Shown here: positions 1,762-40,893 of the stretch, piece by piece
Numbering within the stretch: the first letter of the stretch is position 1
How the letters are laid out: every line of letters starts with the position of its first letter
NCBI GenBank assembly: GCA_945860705.1
Contig: CAMART010000018.1
Location: 1 to 58,129, forward strand
Length of the DNA stretch: 58,129 bases
Source of the DNA: Chitinophaga pinensis
GTDB taxonomy: Bacteria; Bacteroidota; Bacteroidia; Chitinophagales; CAMDFR01
Reading direction: 5' to 3'
The notes under the pieces: generated by a model
Told to the model about the DNA's origin: nothing
Seen by the model: only the letters and a program-made list of their open reading frames with translations
Databases searched by the model: none
Translations under genes and position numbers: made by a program

Positions 1762-2029
1762 TTAAGGTTTAATCTCAATTGATATAATTAGTTCGTTGAC
1801 AAAATTGACTTTTGGATTTGTGAAGGGTTGGCTTTTTTTCATTTTTCTGTTTGTTTTGTGTTGCTTGTTTTGTTTAGAAATTACTTAGTGGTGTGTCTAA
1901 TGCTCGCAATTTTGTATTTTATACGAGTTGCGATTTTTACTTTCTCAAATATATATATTTTTTTGAATATAGTTGACGAATCTATTTTCGATGCTAGGAG
2001 ACATGCATCGTGTTGGTATAATCTTATTA

Positions 2030-2056
2030 TGTCTGGTGTGTCACCAGCCATGGAAA
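2030..2056 (+). repeat. Solo REP-like hairpin related to the RAYT element ends
   Basis: TGTC, then a perfect stem CTGGTG-TGT-CACCAG (2033-2047), then GCCATGGAAA. The same architecture, TGTC + CGGGTG-TGC-CACCCG + CCATGGAAA, forms the right end of the transposase element at 39328-39353. The stem differs by a compensatory pair change (G-C to T-A at stem position 2), which argues that the hairpin itself is conserved. No transposase lies nearby. Confidence 0.65.
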
Positions 2057-2069
2057 AGGTGGTGGGAAG

Positions 2070-2213
2070 GCTTTGTGAGATTGCTTCGTTTTTAATGCCC
2101 AAAGTCAGCAATAAAACCTCGCAATGACAAGCCGGTATGGAGTGTGAGGCGAAGCCTCACACCACGAAGCATTCGTCATTGCGATGAGGAACGAAGAAGC
2201 AATCTCACAAAGC
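2070..2213. repeat. Large palindromic repeat with nested hairpin (MITE/REP-like)
   Basis: Outer arms GCTTTGTGAGATTGCTTC (2070-2087) and its perfect reverse complement (2196-2213), a second inner pair CGCAATGAC (2120-2128) and GTCATTGCG (2175-2183), and a central perfect hairpin GTGTGAGGC-GAA-GCCTCACAC (2142-2162). Together they form a nested roughly 144-bp palindromic unit with no coding content. From memory, motifs of the type TCATTGCGA...GAAGCAATCTC recur as interspersed repeats in many bacterial genomes; I could not check this. Confidence 0.75.
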
Positions 2214-2283
2214 ACAAGAACTTATACATAATAATTCACTAACTCTATTAAATGAAAAATACTTTTTGTTTAAGTATTTGATT

Positions 2284-2372
2284 GCACCCCCGATAGAAGC
2301 GGTATCCTCTGCCACTCAGTAAGGCAGAGATATAAGCGTCCCGAACATTCGGGAAGCGGGTGTATTTGGTGC
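2284..2372. repeat. Structured intergenic element
   Basis: Nested inverted repeats: outer GCACC (2284-2288)/GGTGC (2368-2372) or CACCC/GGGTG, a hairpin CTCTGCC (2307-2313)/GGCAGAG (2323-2329) extended by TAT/ATA, and a perfect palindrome TCCCGAA-CA-TTCGGGA (2339-2354). It sits 31 bases beyond the stop of the large minus-strand gene and may act in its 3' end formation, although no U-tract follows. The GATAGAAGCGG... core resembles interspersed elements I recall from other Bacteroidota; unverified. Confidence 0.55.
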
Positions 2373-2402
2373 CCTAATTTTTATTTGATTTATAATTCTC
2401 CC

Positions 2403-5400
2403 CTAAAAATCTAAATTGAAACTCAGGTGCAATCTTGGGCTAGTGATTTTGGCACCATCGTAGCCCCAAGCCAAATCGGCTCTTACAAAATATCCAAATA
2501 TAGTAGTGCGCAGTCCAGCACCAAATCCGCTTACTATCGGATTTCTTTTTTGATAGATGGTCACCGTCACTGGTGAAGTCTCGGGTACTCGTATCACATT
2601 TTTGAAGAGAGGATTATTATTATTGAATGGAGTGAGTCCTTCCCAAGCCGTGCCCACATCTGTAAATCCTACGAGTTGGAAGTTTTTGATGAGTTCACTT
2701 CTACTATTGATATTAAATAAACTACTGAAAACAGGGATGCGTATTTCTGCATTGATGAGTGCATACGAGTTTCCGTTACGGATGTTTTGGTCAAAGCCAC
2801 GCATATCTGTAGCTAAGCTTTGGAAGGCATAGTTGTAGCCATTATTGATAGGTGTAGTAGTATTGAATCTTGGTGCTATAGCTCCATCTACATTACCTAG
2901 ATAATAAATCATTTTTCTAGTACCTACAGAAGTGCTCCACGAAAAGCGAGTAGCCAATATGATGTTTTTATAGAGTTTTTCGTAGTGACGAATATCTGCA
3001 CCGATGATACCAAAATAGGCATTGTTCCATCTAGGTAGTTTCATAGAAAATGACTCCGATATTTTAGTATCGGCAGTAGGTATTTCTTTATGCCATTCGG
3101 TAAATATTTTTAGGCGCGTGCCTCTTCTAAGATTGGTAGCCAGTACAAATGTATTGTCAAATACATAGTCAATTTTTAGTGAAGTCCAGTTGGTAGCATA
3201 GTTAGTGAGTGCGAGTGATTGTTCGTTTTCGGCTCTGTATACAAACTTATCGTTTCTATATCCAAAACCAAATCGGATGCTCTGCAATAAATCAATTGGA
3301 TATTTGCATTGTATCTCTGCATAGTTGGTTTTTATTTTGTAGTTGAGTGGTAGATTTGCTCCACTCAAAACAATAGTATCAAAAGGGACCGTATTATCTT
3401 CAGATTGCATGGGTCTGCTACTTCTATAGTAAGTATATTTGGTATCGAGTCTTTTCTTCAGATTTTCATAACTCAAAAAATACTCCGTACCATTAAAACT
3501 AGAAGGGATTCTAAAACCACCCGTGATTCTATAGTTTTCCATCAGGTCTACAATTCCTAGCTTGATCAAACCACCGATAGCAGGCATATTGGGTGCAGGA
3601 TTTTTTGGGTTGAATACATTGTATCTAGTTACCAAAAGTGAATTGTCTAATTGTGCAGCTATTTTGTCGGTCATCATTTTCACTATGTAGGGTCTTTGTT
3701 TAGAAAACCTAAATACCCCTCCAGTAGTAGATACAGAGCCATTGCTATTGTATGATAGACTACGTTGTATATTGAAATTGATGATAGAATCTTGTGCAGG
3801 ATTTTGAGCGATAAAATCAAATTCGCTTTGGAAATAATTTCTTGATGTATTGTTATTCTCTGTTGAGTTATTGCTCGGATTTACTTGTATGACTTCCGTA
3901 GTATCTCTATATTCAAATATGATCACTTCATCTTTATCTTCTTTTTCAGCTATCTTCTGTGAGTCTTCTTTGGTTCGGATATAGTTGAGTTTAAAAGCAT
4001 TTACATTTTTGATAGTAGAGAAAGTAGTGTCTATATCTGTTCTATATAGTTTGTATTTGATACCATCAAAATGCCAGCTATTTACTTTGTTGTTTTCAAA
4101 ATTGATACTTTGATCGAGTATGCCATTACTCATATTGCTGATGCATACTGGTGTGCCCATAAGTTTGTTTACTGGGAAAATACGATTGCTATCAATACGT
4201 ATAGCACTCATTTCTATAAACGAATCGAGATATTGTTCTTCATGAATCAAAAGAGAATCAGAAAAATTTTCTACCGTATCTGTATAGTACATCATCTTGC
4301 CTGTAAACCAATATTTACTTTCTATTTTAGATACATATCTATTAGCTATTCCAGATTCATTGCTGATATAAGAAAAATATTGGTCATTAAAATTTTCGAT
4401 ACCATATACTTCACTCCACATAGATTGGTTGGTGATTTGTGCGTAGTAGTTGGGAGTATATATAGGACTATAAAAAAATAAATTCATTGGCCCAAGTGGC
4501 AATTCTTTTTCAAGTTTTTCATTTCGTATAGTATCGCTTCTTCTATTACTTTTAAAAACAATGCCTCTAAACTCATCTGTGCTTATAAATTTAGGGTCTA
4601 GGTCATCCCAAAAATCATTGGTGAGTGGTGTAGTAGTGGTACTTTTGATATCGTAACTAAAAATATCGCATTGTCCTTTTTGTGCCGCAGAAAATAATAA
4701 AGTACCTTTATCTGAGCCGTAGTTCATACTATATACTTTCTGAAACTTGGTGATAGGTTTTACAGTTTTCTTTTTTGTTTTGATATCGTGTTGAAGTAGT
4801 TTTATTTTATCTCTTTTTTCATAAACTATAGAAAGCTTTGTGCCGTTGGGTTCCCATGCTATCAAAGGATAAGAATTATCGGTAAGTAATGTTCTAGTTC
4901 TATGTCCAAACCTAAAAAGTACTTTTGATTTTTTTTCTTTAGTGTTGTATACATACACTTTTTTTCTACCAAATTCATCGCTACTATAAGCTATGTTTTT
5001 ACCGTCAGTACTGGTTTCTAGGTTGAAGTAGGTAGTGTTTTTCTTCGTTTTTATATCTACTAAATTACTTTTAGCAAGTGTCTCAGTATTTTCATTGATA
5101 GGTGCATATCTACTTACATAATACTTCATACATTTATTGAGCATTTCATTCATAGAGCTACCCAGAGCATAGTCAAAAGCGGCGTTGATATTTTTCGGAT
5201 TTACTTTTACTATATATAATAGGTTGCTGATGGCTTCTTCGCCGTATACTTGTTTTACGAAATTCCAAAAAGCTTTACCAAAAAAATTCAATTCAGCACC
5301 TTCTAGTCTTTTAAATTTAGCATATCTTTTTTTCTCAATACCAGCTTTTAGTTTATTGTCATCACTGGGAGTCCAGTCTTTACCCATGTATTGAATCAGT

Positions 5401-37320: not shown

Positions 37321-38589
37321 TTAATTACTTCTAATAGCATCTACAGGATTGAGCCTAGAGGCTCTAAGTGCAGGTATAATACCAAAAACTATTCCTAGAA
37401 AAATAGAAATCACTAGTCCTATCATCACATTGAATGCAGAGACATGAAAGCTAAAATTCATTTCAGTATTTGACTTAGTCACGTAGTTGAGTATACCAAA
37501 AATACTAAATACAAGTATGAGTCCTATCACACCTCCAAAAAAACAAAGTAGTACAGCTTCAATTAAAAACTCAATAAGTACATAAGCATTTTTTGCTCCT
37601 AATGCTTTTTTGATTCCAATTAAATTGGTGCGTTCTTTTACACTCACAAACATAATATTGGCAATACCAAAGCCACCAACTAATATAGAAAAGCCACCAA
37701 TAAATAAACCCACTAAATAGAGTAATGCAAATACTGGATCAAATAAAGAAGTAAGCATCGAAATTTGATTGAGTGCAAAATTGTCTTCATAGCTTGGTCG
37801 TATTTTTCTATGTGCTCTAAAAATACCCGCCAGTTCGCTTTTTAGCTCTTCTATATCAACACCTTCTTTTGGTTTTACTAAAAGTCGTTGGCTGATTTCA
37901 TAGTTTTTTTCATCTACAAATTTCCTGATATATCCAGATGTGACATACAAAGAATTATCATTAGATATATTCAATAAATCTTTACCTTCTTTTTTTAGAA
38001 CGCCGACTATTTTTAGTTTGTCGCCATTATACTTGATGTATTTTCCTATACAGGAAGGCTCATTAGGAAAAAGAATTTCAGCTACAGAATAACCTACTAT
38101 GCATACGCCTTGCTTTGTATAAAATTCTGAGGGTATAAAAAATCTTCCTTCATTAAAATTCAACTCTTTTAGTAAGTTATAATCATCACTGATACCAGAA
38201 ACTGTTACACCATTTACTTGGTTTTTGTCAGCACTTACTTTTTTGCCTTGCATCAATATTTCGTAGGCACTGTATTGTGTCAGTTTCGATCTTTCTTGTA
38301 TCAATTTAAGCTCGGTAGGCGAAACCTGTGGTCTACTCAAGTATTTCCACCATGGATACTCAGCTTTAAACTCCCAAGGCCATTTTTCTATAAACACTAG
38401 ATTATTGCCTAAAGATTGAATAGTTCCTTTGATATTTTTTTCTAGCGAATCTACAGCAGTAAGCACAGACACAATACATAAAATACCAATAGAGATACCA
38501 GTAAGCGAAAGTATTGCTCTGAGCTTATTGTTATATAATTCCTGCGAAGCAAGAATAAAACTTTGGAGTATGAGTCTGAAAATTATCAT
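37321..38589 (-). CDS. MacB/FtsX-type ABC transporter permease
   Basis: About 422 residues. The ATG at 38587-38589 is chosen over an upstream in-frame TTG (38605-38607), which lies inside the 61-bp repeat. Layout: N-terminal transmembrane segment (NNKLRAILSLTGISIGILCIVSVL), a periplasmic MacB-type core (about 45-260), then three C-terminal transmembrane segments with GIKKALGAKNAYVLIEFLIEAVLL, the FtsX cytoplasmic loop. ATPase and adaptor partners are not adjacent. The RAYT element lies just upstream of its start, so its transcription may have changed. Confidence 0.88.
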   Translation of the reverse strand: MIIFRLILQSFILASQELYNNKLRAILSLTGISIGILCIVSVLTAVDSLEKNIKGTIQSLGNNLVFIEKWPWEFKAEYPWWKYLSRPQVSPTELKLIQERSKLTQYSAYEILMQGKKVSADKNQVNGVTVSGISDDYNLLKELNFNEGRFFIPSEFYTKQGVCIVGYSVAEILFPNEPSCIGKYIKYNGDKLKIVGVLKKEGKDLLNISNDNSLYVTSGYIRKFVDEKNYEISQRLLVKPKEGVDIEELKSELAGIFRAHRKIRPSYEDNFALNQISMLTSLFDPVFALLYLVGLFIGGFSILVGGFGIANIMFVSVKERTNLIGIKKALGAKNAYVLIEFLIEAVLLCFFGGVIGLILVFSIFGILNYVTKSNTEMNFSFHVSAFNVMIGLVISIFLGIVFGIIPALRASRLNPVDAIRSN

Positions 38590-38600
38590 TAAAATACAAA

Positions 38601-38661
38601 GATACAAGATAAGTGAAAAATATTATTACAGATTATTATATTTCATTTTATACTCATCGTC
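38601..38661 (-). repeat. 61-bp direct repeat, left copy (duplicate of the GNAT 3' end)
   Basis: Identical to 39382-39442 except for two bases (59 of 61). In minus orientation it still encodes the last 11 residues of the GNAT protein (DDEYKMKYNNL, then TAA), so it is the stranded copy of that gene's end. It lies 11 bases upstream of the MacB-type permease ATG. Confidence 0.92.
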
Positions 38662-38679
38662 AACATATTATACATGCCT

Positions 38680-38700
38680 TGGCGGGTGGCACACCCGACA
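38680..38700 (-). repeat. REP hairpin, left end of the element
   Basis: Perfect stem CGGGTG/CACCCG with loop GCA; the whole 21-base stretch is the reverse complement of 39328-39348. Confidence 0.9.
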
Positions 38701-38735
38701 ATATTTATAACAATAGTTAATTCATTACCAATTTA

Positions 38736-39281
38736 CTAAAACTCATTTCTGTAATCAGTTAATTGTAACATATTGTCATTAATAGATTGATAATAATATT
38801 TACTTGACGAAAAAGTATATTCGTCTCTTTCATTAACAAGATTCCATTTTTTATTTATAGGATTATTATGAATATATTCTAATTTTTGTTCTAACATCTC
38901 ATTATTAAATATTTCTATTGCTAATGAATCTCTTTGCCATACTCTATAAACACGGTCATGTTCATCTACTTTAAATTTTTTCAAAACATCATCATGATTT
39001 TCTTTCAAATCTTTAATTATTAAATGAGAAGTTTCCTTTATAAAACTAGCATTAGGTTTTTCTTTACCATTAAGTTTAAGTAGCTTAATTAAAAGATGAA
39101 TATGATTTGGCATGATGACATATCCATAAATTTTTATGAAATTATTTTTTATTAAGTTGTTAAGACTCTCAATAATTATAAGTTTGTATTTGTCAGGTGT
39201 AAAAAGTTTCTTCCATTGATGCACAGTACATGTAAGAAAATAAATCTTATCAAGTTCTAAATGTGATTTTCGTTTCATCAA
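38736..39281 (-). CDS. REP-associated tyrosine transposase (RAYT, Y1_Tnp/TnpA_REP)
   Basis: A 181-residue IS200-type HUH transposase. The HUH motif is in GYVIMPNHIHLLIKLLK (about residues 56-64, His-Ile-His), the catalytic Tyr lies in the C-terminal part (candidate KLEYIHNNPINKKW, the motif typical of RAYTs), and the N-terminal IYFLTCTVHQWKKLF is the family's first strand. RAYTs cut single-stranded hairpins at REP sequences. It is full length with no frameshift, so it may be active. Flanked by matching REP hairpins. Confidence 0.93.
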   Translation of the reverse strand: MMKRKSHLELDKIYFLTCTVHQWKKLFTPDKYKLIIIESLNNLIKNNFIKIYGYVIMPNHIHLLIKLLKLNGKEKPNASFIKETSHLIIKDLKENHDDVLKKFKVDEHDRVYRVWQRDSLAIEIFNNEMLEQKLEYIHNNPINKKWNLVNERDEYTFSSSKYYYQSINDNMLQLTDYRNEF

Positions 39282-39327
39282 TCATCAAATTTAACGTGAA
39301 TATACTAATTTTTATATTATCCTAAGA

Positions 39328-39348
39328 TGTCGGGTGTGCCACCCGCCA
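39328..39348 (+). repeat. REP hairpin, right end of the element
   Basis: Stem CGGGTG-TGC-CACCCG (39331-39345) inside a 21-base sequence identical, inverted, to 38680-38700; followed by CATGGAAA as in the solo copy at 2030-2056. Confidence 0.9.
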
Positions 39349-39381
39349 TGGAAATGGAATGCATACACGCCTTGGTGGGTG

Positions 39382-39442
39382 GATACAAGATAAGTGAAAA
39401 ATATTATTACAGATTATTATACTTCATTTTATATTCATCGTC
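39382..39442 (-). repeat. 61-bp direct repeat, right copy (end of the intact GNAT gene)
   Basis: Contains the GNAT stop codon (39407-39409) and its last codons. Copy of 38601-38661 with two mismatches. See the element entry. Confidence 0.92.
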
Positions 39443-39874
39443 TATACATTCTATCATTTTAAAACCGATTTTTTCATATAATTTCTTAGCTCTAATATTA
39501 TTTATTTTTACTTCAAGATAAATCTCAATGTCATTATCTAGTTTATGTATTTCTTCAATAGTTTTTAGTAAAAGTTGATAACCGATTTTTTGACCAGAAT
39601 ATTTTGGTTTTACATACATCTGATAAATATTTCCAAGCATATTATTTCTTTCAAATGCGCATATACCAATAATTATTTTATCATCAAATGCACCAACTAC
39701 AAATTTTAGTTCATCTGAATTTTCTATAGATAGTTGAAAACCGGTTTTTTCTTGTAGTATAGCATTTTCATATTTAGTACCAAATGCTTCAGGAAAATCT
39801 TTTAAGCATTCAAGTCTAATATATCGGTATATCAGACTTTCTGTAGGTAACAGTCTTCTATATTCAATATCCAT
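39407..39874 (-). CDS. GNAT family N-acetyltransferase
   Basis: A 155-residue acetyltransferase: beta1-helix start (IEYRRLLPTESLIYRYIRLECLKDFPEAFG), core with GICAFERNNMLGNIYQMYVKPKYSGQKIGYQLL (acetyl-CoA pyrophosphate loop Q/R-x-x-G-x-G/A is QKIGYQ) and the C-terminal NNIRAKKLYEKIGFKMIE. Small substrate unknown. The final 11 codons are duplicated beyond the RAYT element. It follows the M28 gene by two bases, so it is the next cistron of that operon. Confidence 0.9.
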   Translation of the reverse strand: MDIEYRRLLPTESLIYRYIRLECLKDFPEAFGTKYENAILQEKTGFQLSIENSDELKFVVGAFDDKIIIGICAFERNNMLGNIYQMYVKPKYSGQKIGYQLLLKTIEEIHKLDNDIEIYLEVKINNIRAKKLYEKIGFKMIECIDDEYKMKYNNL

Positions 39875-39876
39875 TC

Positions 39877-40893
39877 CTACACACTTTTTTTCTTATCGTA
39901 TTTATATATAGCGTGCAGTACTGTTTGTCCTACAGCTTTGAGTGTAGCTTTATTCACAGCATTGATATTGTCATTGTGCGTATGCCAGTATGCACCAAAT
40001 CCACTAGGTGTTTCGTTAGTTCTATGTATGATATCCAACATAGGAATATTTGCTATTTCATTTACATATTTGTGGTCATCTATAAGTGCACCCGTTTGCT
40101 CATAAGTAAAATATTGGCTGTATCCTATTTCATTTGCAATGCCCCACACATAGTTTACAAATGCACCTGCATACATCATAGAAGTTCCTTCTTTAGTAAA
40201 AGTAGCATTGCTTGCACCTACCATATCAAGTAGAATACCAAAGTCTGCGGTATAGTTAGGTATATGTTTATTTTTACTCCAATAAATAGAACCTAGACAA
40301 TAGCTTTCTTCAAGTGTAGTAGTAGCACCTTGTGGAGCACCATAGTCTTCTGCATCAAACAATACAATGTCTATACCGATATCTATTTTGTTTTGTTTTA
40401 AAACATTCGCTATTTCAAGTAATACTCCTACACCACTTGCACCATCGTTAGCACCATCTATTGCTTCTTTTTGTCTACTACTATCTTGGTCTGCAAAAGG
40501 GCGAGTATCCCAGTGTGATGCGAGCATGATTCGTTGTTTTGCATTTGGATTAAATGAGGCAATAATATTTCTGGATTTCAAAACTTTACCATCAAAGCCA
40601 GTTAAATCAGCTTTTTGTACATATACAGTATCTGCTTTTTCTTTTAAAAATTGTATCATCCAGTCGCCACATTTTACATGAGCTGCAGTATTATTTACAC
40701 GTGGCCCAAAGTCTACTTGTTTTTTTACATAAGCGAAAGCACTATCTTCATTGAAGTTAGGCACAGTCACTTTGATGTCTTCTACTGGTGGAGTATTTTC
40801 AGTAGTATCATTTTTTGGTGTTTGTTTGCATGAGGTACAAGCCACTAAAAAATGTATAAAGAGACTAAATAATAATAATTGAAAAAGTTTCAT
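39877..40893 (-). CDS. M28-family glutaminyl-peptide cyclotransferase-like lipoprotein
   Basis: A 338-residue lipoprotein (signal ending FLVAC, Cys19). The mature protein has the M28 fold with SHWDTRPFADQD, IDGANDGASGVGVLLEIA, LFDAEDYG, SYCLGSIYWSK, FGILLDMVGAS and YWHTHNDN, a pattern I associate with the bacterial glutaminyl cyclases rather than with aminopeptidases. These enzymes convert N-terminal Gln into pyroglutamate. In P. gingivalis this enzyme matures many exported proteins, which would fit a T9SS organism. Function inferred from family resemblance only. Confidence 0.85.
   Translation of the reverse strand: MKLFQLLLFSLFIHFLVACTSCKQTPKNDTTENTPPVEDIKVTVPNFNEDSAFAYVKKQVDFGPRVNNTAAHVKCGDWMIQFLKEKADTVYVQKADLTGFDGKVLKSRNIIASFNPNAKQRIMLASHWDTRPFADQDSSRQKEAIDGANDGASGVGVLLEIANVLKQNKIDIGIDIVLFDAEDYGAPQGATTTLEESYCLGSIYWSKNKHIPNYTADFGILLDMVGASNATFTKEGTSMMYAGAFVNYVWGIANEIGYSQYFTYEQTGALIDDHKYVNEIANIPMLDIIHRTNETPSGFGAYWHTHNDNINAVNKATLKAVGQTVLHAIYKYDKKKSV

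Follow-up and report, generated by a model that had tools for sequence, protein, structure and literature searches.

REP-associated tyrosine transposases (RAYTs) are described as domesticated, non-mobile transposases, and the mechanism by which repetitive extragenic palindromes (REPs) spread is unexplained. RAYTs are apparently incapable of self-mobilization (PMC3116915), and there is no evidence for mobility of tnpAREP (PMC8266576). The closest described systems are the RAYT/TnpA-REP REPtrons (group 5 of Bertels et al.; subclass 2.6 of Quentin et al. 2018, mostly Bacteroidetes), in which a Y1 HUH transposase is accompanied by inverted REP-like hairpins with few copies elsewhere. Elements of the IS200/IS605 family have a related Y1 transposase and hairpin ends; they carry no inverted repeats at their termini and insert without larger duplications of the target (PMC2817692). 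REPIN clusters can consist of tandem repeats with flanking sequence included (Bertels and Rainey 2011, PMC3116915). In the literature searched, we found no description of RAYTs or Y1 enzymes leaving long target duplications. Here we describe a RAYT locus in a 58,129-nucleotide stretch of Chitinophaga pinensis DNA (Bacteroidota, order Chitinophagales; contig CAMART010000018.1 of assembly GCA_945860705.1), hereafter the window, where a REP-RAYT-REP unit was likely inserted whole at the junction of a GNAT acetyltransferase gene and a permease gene, duplicating 61 bp of the target.

The locus resembles the REPtrons in its transposase, its hairpins, and the scarcity of their copies elsewhere, and the NHIH and YIHNNP motifs of subclass 2.6 are shared by the window RAYT; what differs in the loci presented here is insertion of the whole unit with long flank duplications. 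From IS200/IS605 elements the window locus is set apart by its inverted REPs and its 61-bp duplication. It is like the REPIN tandem clusters in that flanking sequence is doubled along with REP sequences, but in those clusters each repeat consists of a REPIN plus its flanks, whereas the window locus has a single unit enclosed by two copies of the flank.

The direct repeats at 38601-38661 and 39382-39442 are identical at 59 of 61 positions and bracket the inserted unit (38662-39381, 720 bp, minus strand), which takes up all the sequence between them. The initial annotation had reported this repeat, together with a transposase gene between matching REP hairpins with 21-base perfect inverted repeats, and both descriptions proved exact. 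The REP arms (38677-38700 on the plus strand, 39328-39351 on the minus strand) are inverted around the RAYT gene and match over 24 nt with one mismatch, 21 consecutive nucleotides being perfect. Extended without gaps, the direct repeat reaches 72 nt at 92% identity, and local alignment of the flanks scores 114, the highest score among 300 dinucleotide-shuffled versions of these flanks being 36. As had been proposed, the repeat is the 3' end of the GNAT gene, stop codon included: the right copy comprises the final 36 nt of the gene plus 25 bp downstream and is contiguous with the intact open reading frame (39407-39874), and the left copy is a leftover of the same gene end with its 25 bp, adjoining the upstream region of the permease. 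Either copy encodes DEYKMKYNNL followed by a stop, both substitutions between them are synonymous in the GNAT frame, and on its outer side each copy continues into an intact neighbor. The identity is consistent with the fairly recent event that the annotation had suggested. In a whole-genome search with the region, the 61-bp sequence was unique to this locus, which argues against an unrelated genome-wide repeat, and no relative was seen to carry two copies without the element. A partial REP-like piece at 39362-39381 (plus strand; CATACACGCCTTGGTGGGTG), directly oriented, resembles the beginning of the left REP and stops at the right repeat copy. Gaps of 4 and 30 bp separate the repeat edges from the REP arms, with no other full copy to fix the ends of the element.

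Sister loci supply what the initial annotation had named as the decisive comparison, a single-copy empty site lacking the element, and it was seen twice. At locus L231 of genome G035, two 91-bp copies (98% identical) flank a 703-bp element. Genome G047 is continuous across this site (L231 positions 1-1456 align with 490-1958, and 2204-3476 with 1912-3184), the two flanks overlapping by 47 bp, so that one G047 stretch answers both copies; the RAYT is absent. Other copies of the element in G035, mostly deleted in the middle, share the start and stop of the L231 element, and the ends fixed by these copies meet the 91-bp repeats without a gap. A solo REP in G035, its ends likewise fixed by other copies, has a flush duplication of 27-28 bp. 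At locus L205 of genome G239, a gene 3' end and terminator are present in two copies around the RAYT. At this site in G312 the two genes converge, the aligned parts lie 66 bp apart, and there is a single terminator region and no RAYT; the 3'-terminal sequence of the right-hand gene, TTATTTTACTTCCTGCAT, is found there once. Because G311 carries the RAYT and the repeat as in G239, the L205 insertion, judged from these sequences, probably predates the split between the two. Insertion accompanied by duplication is read directly in such comparisons. Separately, the RAYT regions at L205 and at L355 of G311 are 98% identical and their flanks 86-88%; the RAYT seems to have passed between species by exchange or conversion. 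At L213, tried as a third empty site, relatives yielded only part of the neighboring gene, and for L002, a paralogous locus in the window's genome, no orthologous upstream gene was present in G003, the closest relative compared.

We surveyed 299 genomes of the order and found RAYT relatives in 165. We compared left with right flanks at RAYT loci and counted a direct repeat at a score of at least 40. Such repeats were found at 44% of 111 loci and in 0 of 1,080 controls, many of them being REPs. Once inverted repeats and hairpins were masked, non-REP direct repeats spanned 23 of 110 RAYT loci. None were seen in 500 mixed-locus pairs or in 320 random cores taken from other Bacteroidota loci, and 6 of 222 same-side comparisons had one. 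On inspection, about 12 of the 23 were duplicated unique flank, usually a neighbor's gene end, and the rest were REP-array or gene duplications. At the window locus, L231, L152, L002, L205, and L182, no more than about 35 bp separated the repeat edges from the ends of the inverted repeats. Repeats overlapped or touched gene ends at L231, L205, L213, L174, L002, and L381. Bracketing repeats occurred with YIH[QN]NP as well as with other Tyr motifs. A shared cleavage dinucleotide, with TC preceding the cut on each strand, fit three or four young cases and failed in others. Among the plasmid RAYTs of Bernardetia and Persicobacter there was no clear non-REP case; in Persicobacter plasmid CP012860, one RAYT (L384) lies between direct repeats of about 450 bp.

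Several observations weigh against a general tie between insertion and duplication, and some against the reading of the window itself. About 80% of the 110 RAYT loci surveyed have no duplication, and the masking thresholds were chosen by the analyst with no preset rule. At several loci (for example, L213, L133, L225, and L189), the repeats and the REPs are not flush, and the repeat edges have no common cleavage dinucleotide. In G035, only 2 of 14 element places have a flush repeat and the other 12 do not. In the G164 family, whose 20 places comprise 19 REP or REPIN copies and one RAYT-bearing copy (L381), 1 of the 19 reaches a score of 40, is not flush on the right, and falls within the range of the mixed-locus controls. 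An empty site for the window insertion was not found among relatives, the nearest of which, G003, also lacks the GNAT gene; it is the absence of this gene from relatives that makes such a site unobtainable. RAYT-bearing copies in G164 do show repeats: about 145 bp over a neighboring gene's promoter region and 5' end at L381, and 83 bp over a gene 3' end, with one side not flush, at L213, the second RAYT copy in that genome. The duplication is absent from most RAYT copies, copies resembling miniature inverted-repeat transposable elements (MITE-like copies), and REPIN copies. It is either an occasional outcome of insertion or is seen mainly where a gene end was rescued. The G164-family REPINs and the MITE-like copies in G035 rule out a doubling of the target at every REP insertion.

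The window RAYT (38736-39281, minus strand; 181 amino acids) has intact NHIH (HUH) and YIHNNP (Tyr) motifs. It matches NCBIfam NF047646 at 78.2 bits (E = 5.5e-22), slightly under the cut-off of 80, which the L231 and L205 RAYTs exceed, and Pfam Y1_Tnp at 21.5 bits (E = 2.7e-4; cut-off, 23). A sequence search of solved structures with this protein gave no relative. Its nearest paralogues in the same genome are 44-56% identical in amino acid sequence, with no near copy. One of them, at C14:53231-53763, is broken into two reading frames; a 34-nt direct repeat, taking in the stop codon of the upstream gene, lies on either side of it beyond the REPs. Across the whole genome, REPs matching the window REP occur, besides the RAYT locus, in three places only (C1:83255 and C19:8435/8625). 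Other REP-linked structures in this genome include a 77-bp, 99% identical tandem duplication of a RAYT 3' end and its REP (contig C6, L015:1996-2149), a 190-bp tandem duplication with one REP per unit whose core is identical to the window REP (contig C19, L024:1492-1871), and, at 2033-2049 of the window, a REP-like palindrome with three mismatches to the window REP core.

The genes around the insertion all lie on the minus strand, in the order RNase HII, M28 peptidase, GNAT, RAYT, permease. The peptidase (39877-40893) is separated by 2 bp from the GNAT gene, which is intact and encodes 155 amino acids. No GNAT orthologue was found in the three congeneric genomes searched, and for this reason the gene is accessory and was itself probably acquired. 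In G003, whose permease is 87% identical in amino acid sequence, the peptidase and permease genes are adjacent across a short gap with neither GNAT nor RAYT between them; the upstream neighbor of the permease differs in G001 and G002. The listed reading frame of the MacB/FtsX-type permease opens at TTG 38607, inside the repeat, but homologues begin at ATG 38589 (gene, 37321-38589), which places the repeat outside the permease coding sequence. The suggestion that the insertion put a promoter-poor spacer in front of the permease is not supported. It is made doubtful by a TANNTTTG-like box (TATCTTTG) across the left repeat edge and by the presence of TAAGTTTG at a like position in G001 and G002; going by these motifs, the permease may still have a promoter.

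The main rival to insertion with target duplication is DNA uptake followed by illegitimate recombination, in which a relative's RAYT fragment paired by homology at one gene end and was joined by microhomology at the other, so that the flank was left doubled with the RAYT uninvolved. With no close sister copy of the RAYT and only three other REP places in the genome, the source would probably have been outside the genome or since lost. The synonymous nature of both repeat substitutions looks as though one copy had come from another allele, and the closer similarity of the G239 and G311 RAYT regions than of their flanks is also in keeping with uptake. Against it, the element ends met by the G035 repeats are known from other, non-allelic copies, and the solo REP gives the same picture; on balance we regard this explanation as unlikely.

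Somewhat less probable still is tandem amplification of REP clusters, as for the REPINs of P. fluorescens SBW25, by which the repeat would stem from a REP-linked duplication and not from insertion. Tandem duplications do occur in the window's genome (those on C19 and C6 above) and at L201, L139, and L132, the REPIN tandem clusters include flanking sequence (PMC3116915), and the partial REP-like piece adjoins the right window copy. In the window, however, the flank alone is doubled and the RAYT unit is not, and both empty sites are single copy and lack the element. The same empty sites, in G047 and G312, bear on replication slippage, by which the 61 bp would first have been doubled in tandem and the element would have entered later between the copies: a doubled but empty site was never seen. 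Slippage duplications of such size do occur in bacteria, but this sequence of events needs insertion exactly at the copy junction, repeatedly and at unrelated loci, and we consider it very improbable. Insertion together with flank duplication, which the initial annotation had offered, is the best reading, supported by the order-wide enrichment and the two sister empty sites.

By analogy with the chemistry of its family, the RAYT is probably the agent of such insertions, acting through uncoupled joining plus fill-in or template switching. HUH enzymes leave a 3'-OH that can be joined or can prime synthesis (PMC8266576). The unit of about 720 bp would have entered the GNAT-permease junction as a whole, with the RAYT, as an HUH single-strand nuclease, joining each end of the element to a different target strand or, alternatively, one end to one strand and the other to a re-initiated copy. 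If the two joining positions are not coupled, fill-in between them would duplicate a stretch that varies in length (27-145 bp in the cleaner examples) and would often duplicate nothing. Through the doubling of 61 bp, neither the 3' end of the GNAT gene nor the region upstream of the permease would have been lost, and the cases that survive would tend to be those in which the duplication rescued a gene end. Target duplications of LINE-type elements also vary in length or are lacking, which is explained by uncoupled first and second cuts; with no reverse transcriptase here, the likeness is one of analogy only.

More broadly, it is possible, though we advance this tentatively, that RAYT units of Bacteroidota are mobile as whole elements and move by a two-strand, uncoordinated HUH transposition that leaves target duplications of anywhere from none to more than 100 bp, unlike the peel-and-paste transposition of IS200/IS605. 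The duplication explains how an element could land at a tight gene junction and leave both genes unbroken. Insertions for which relatives show the empty site, the element ends are known, and the target is doubled give a handle on how a RAYT unit is joined to its target, the first such handle in the literature searched, and this question is now open to bench assay and strain-level comparison.
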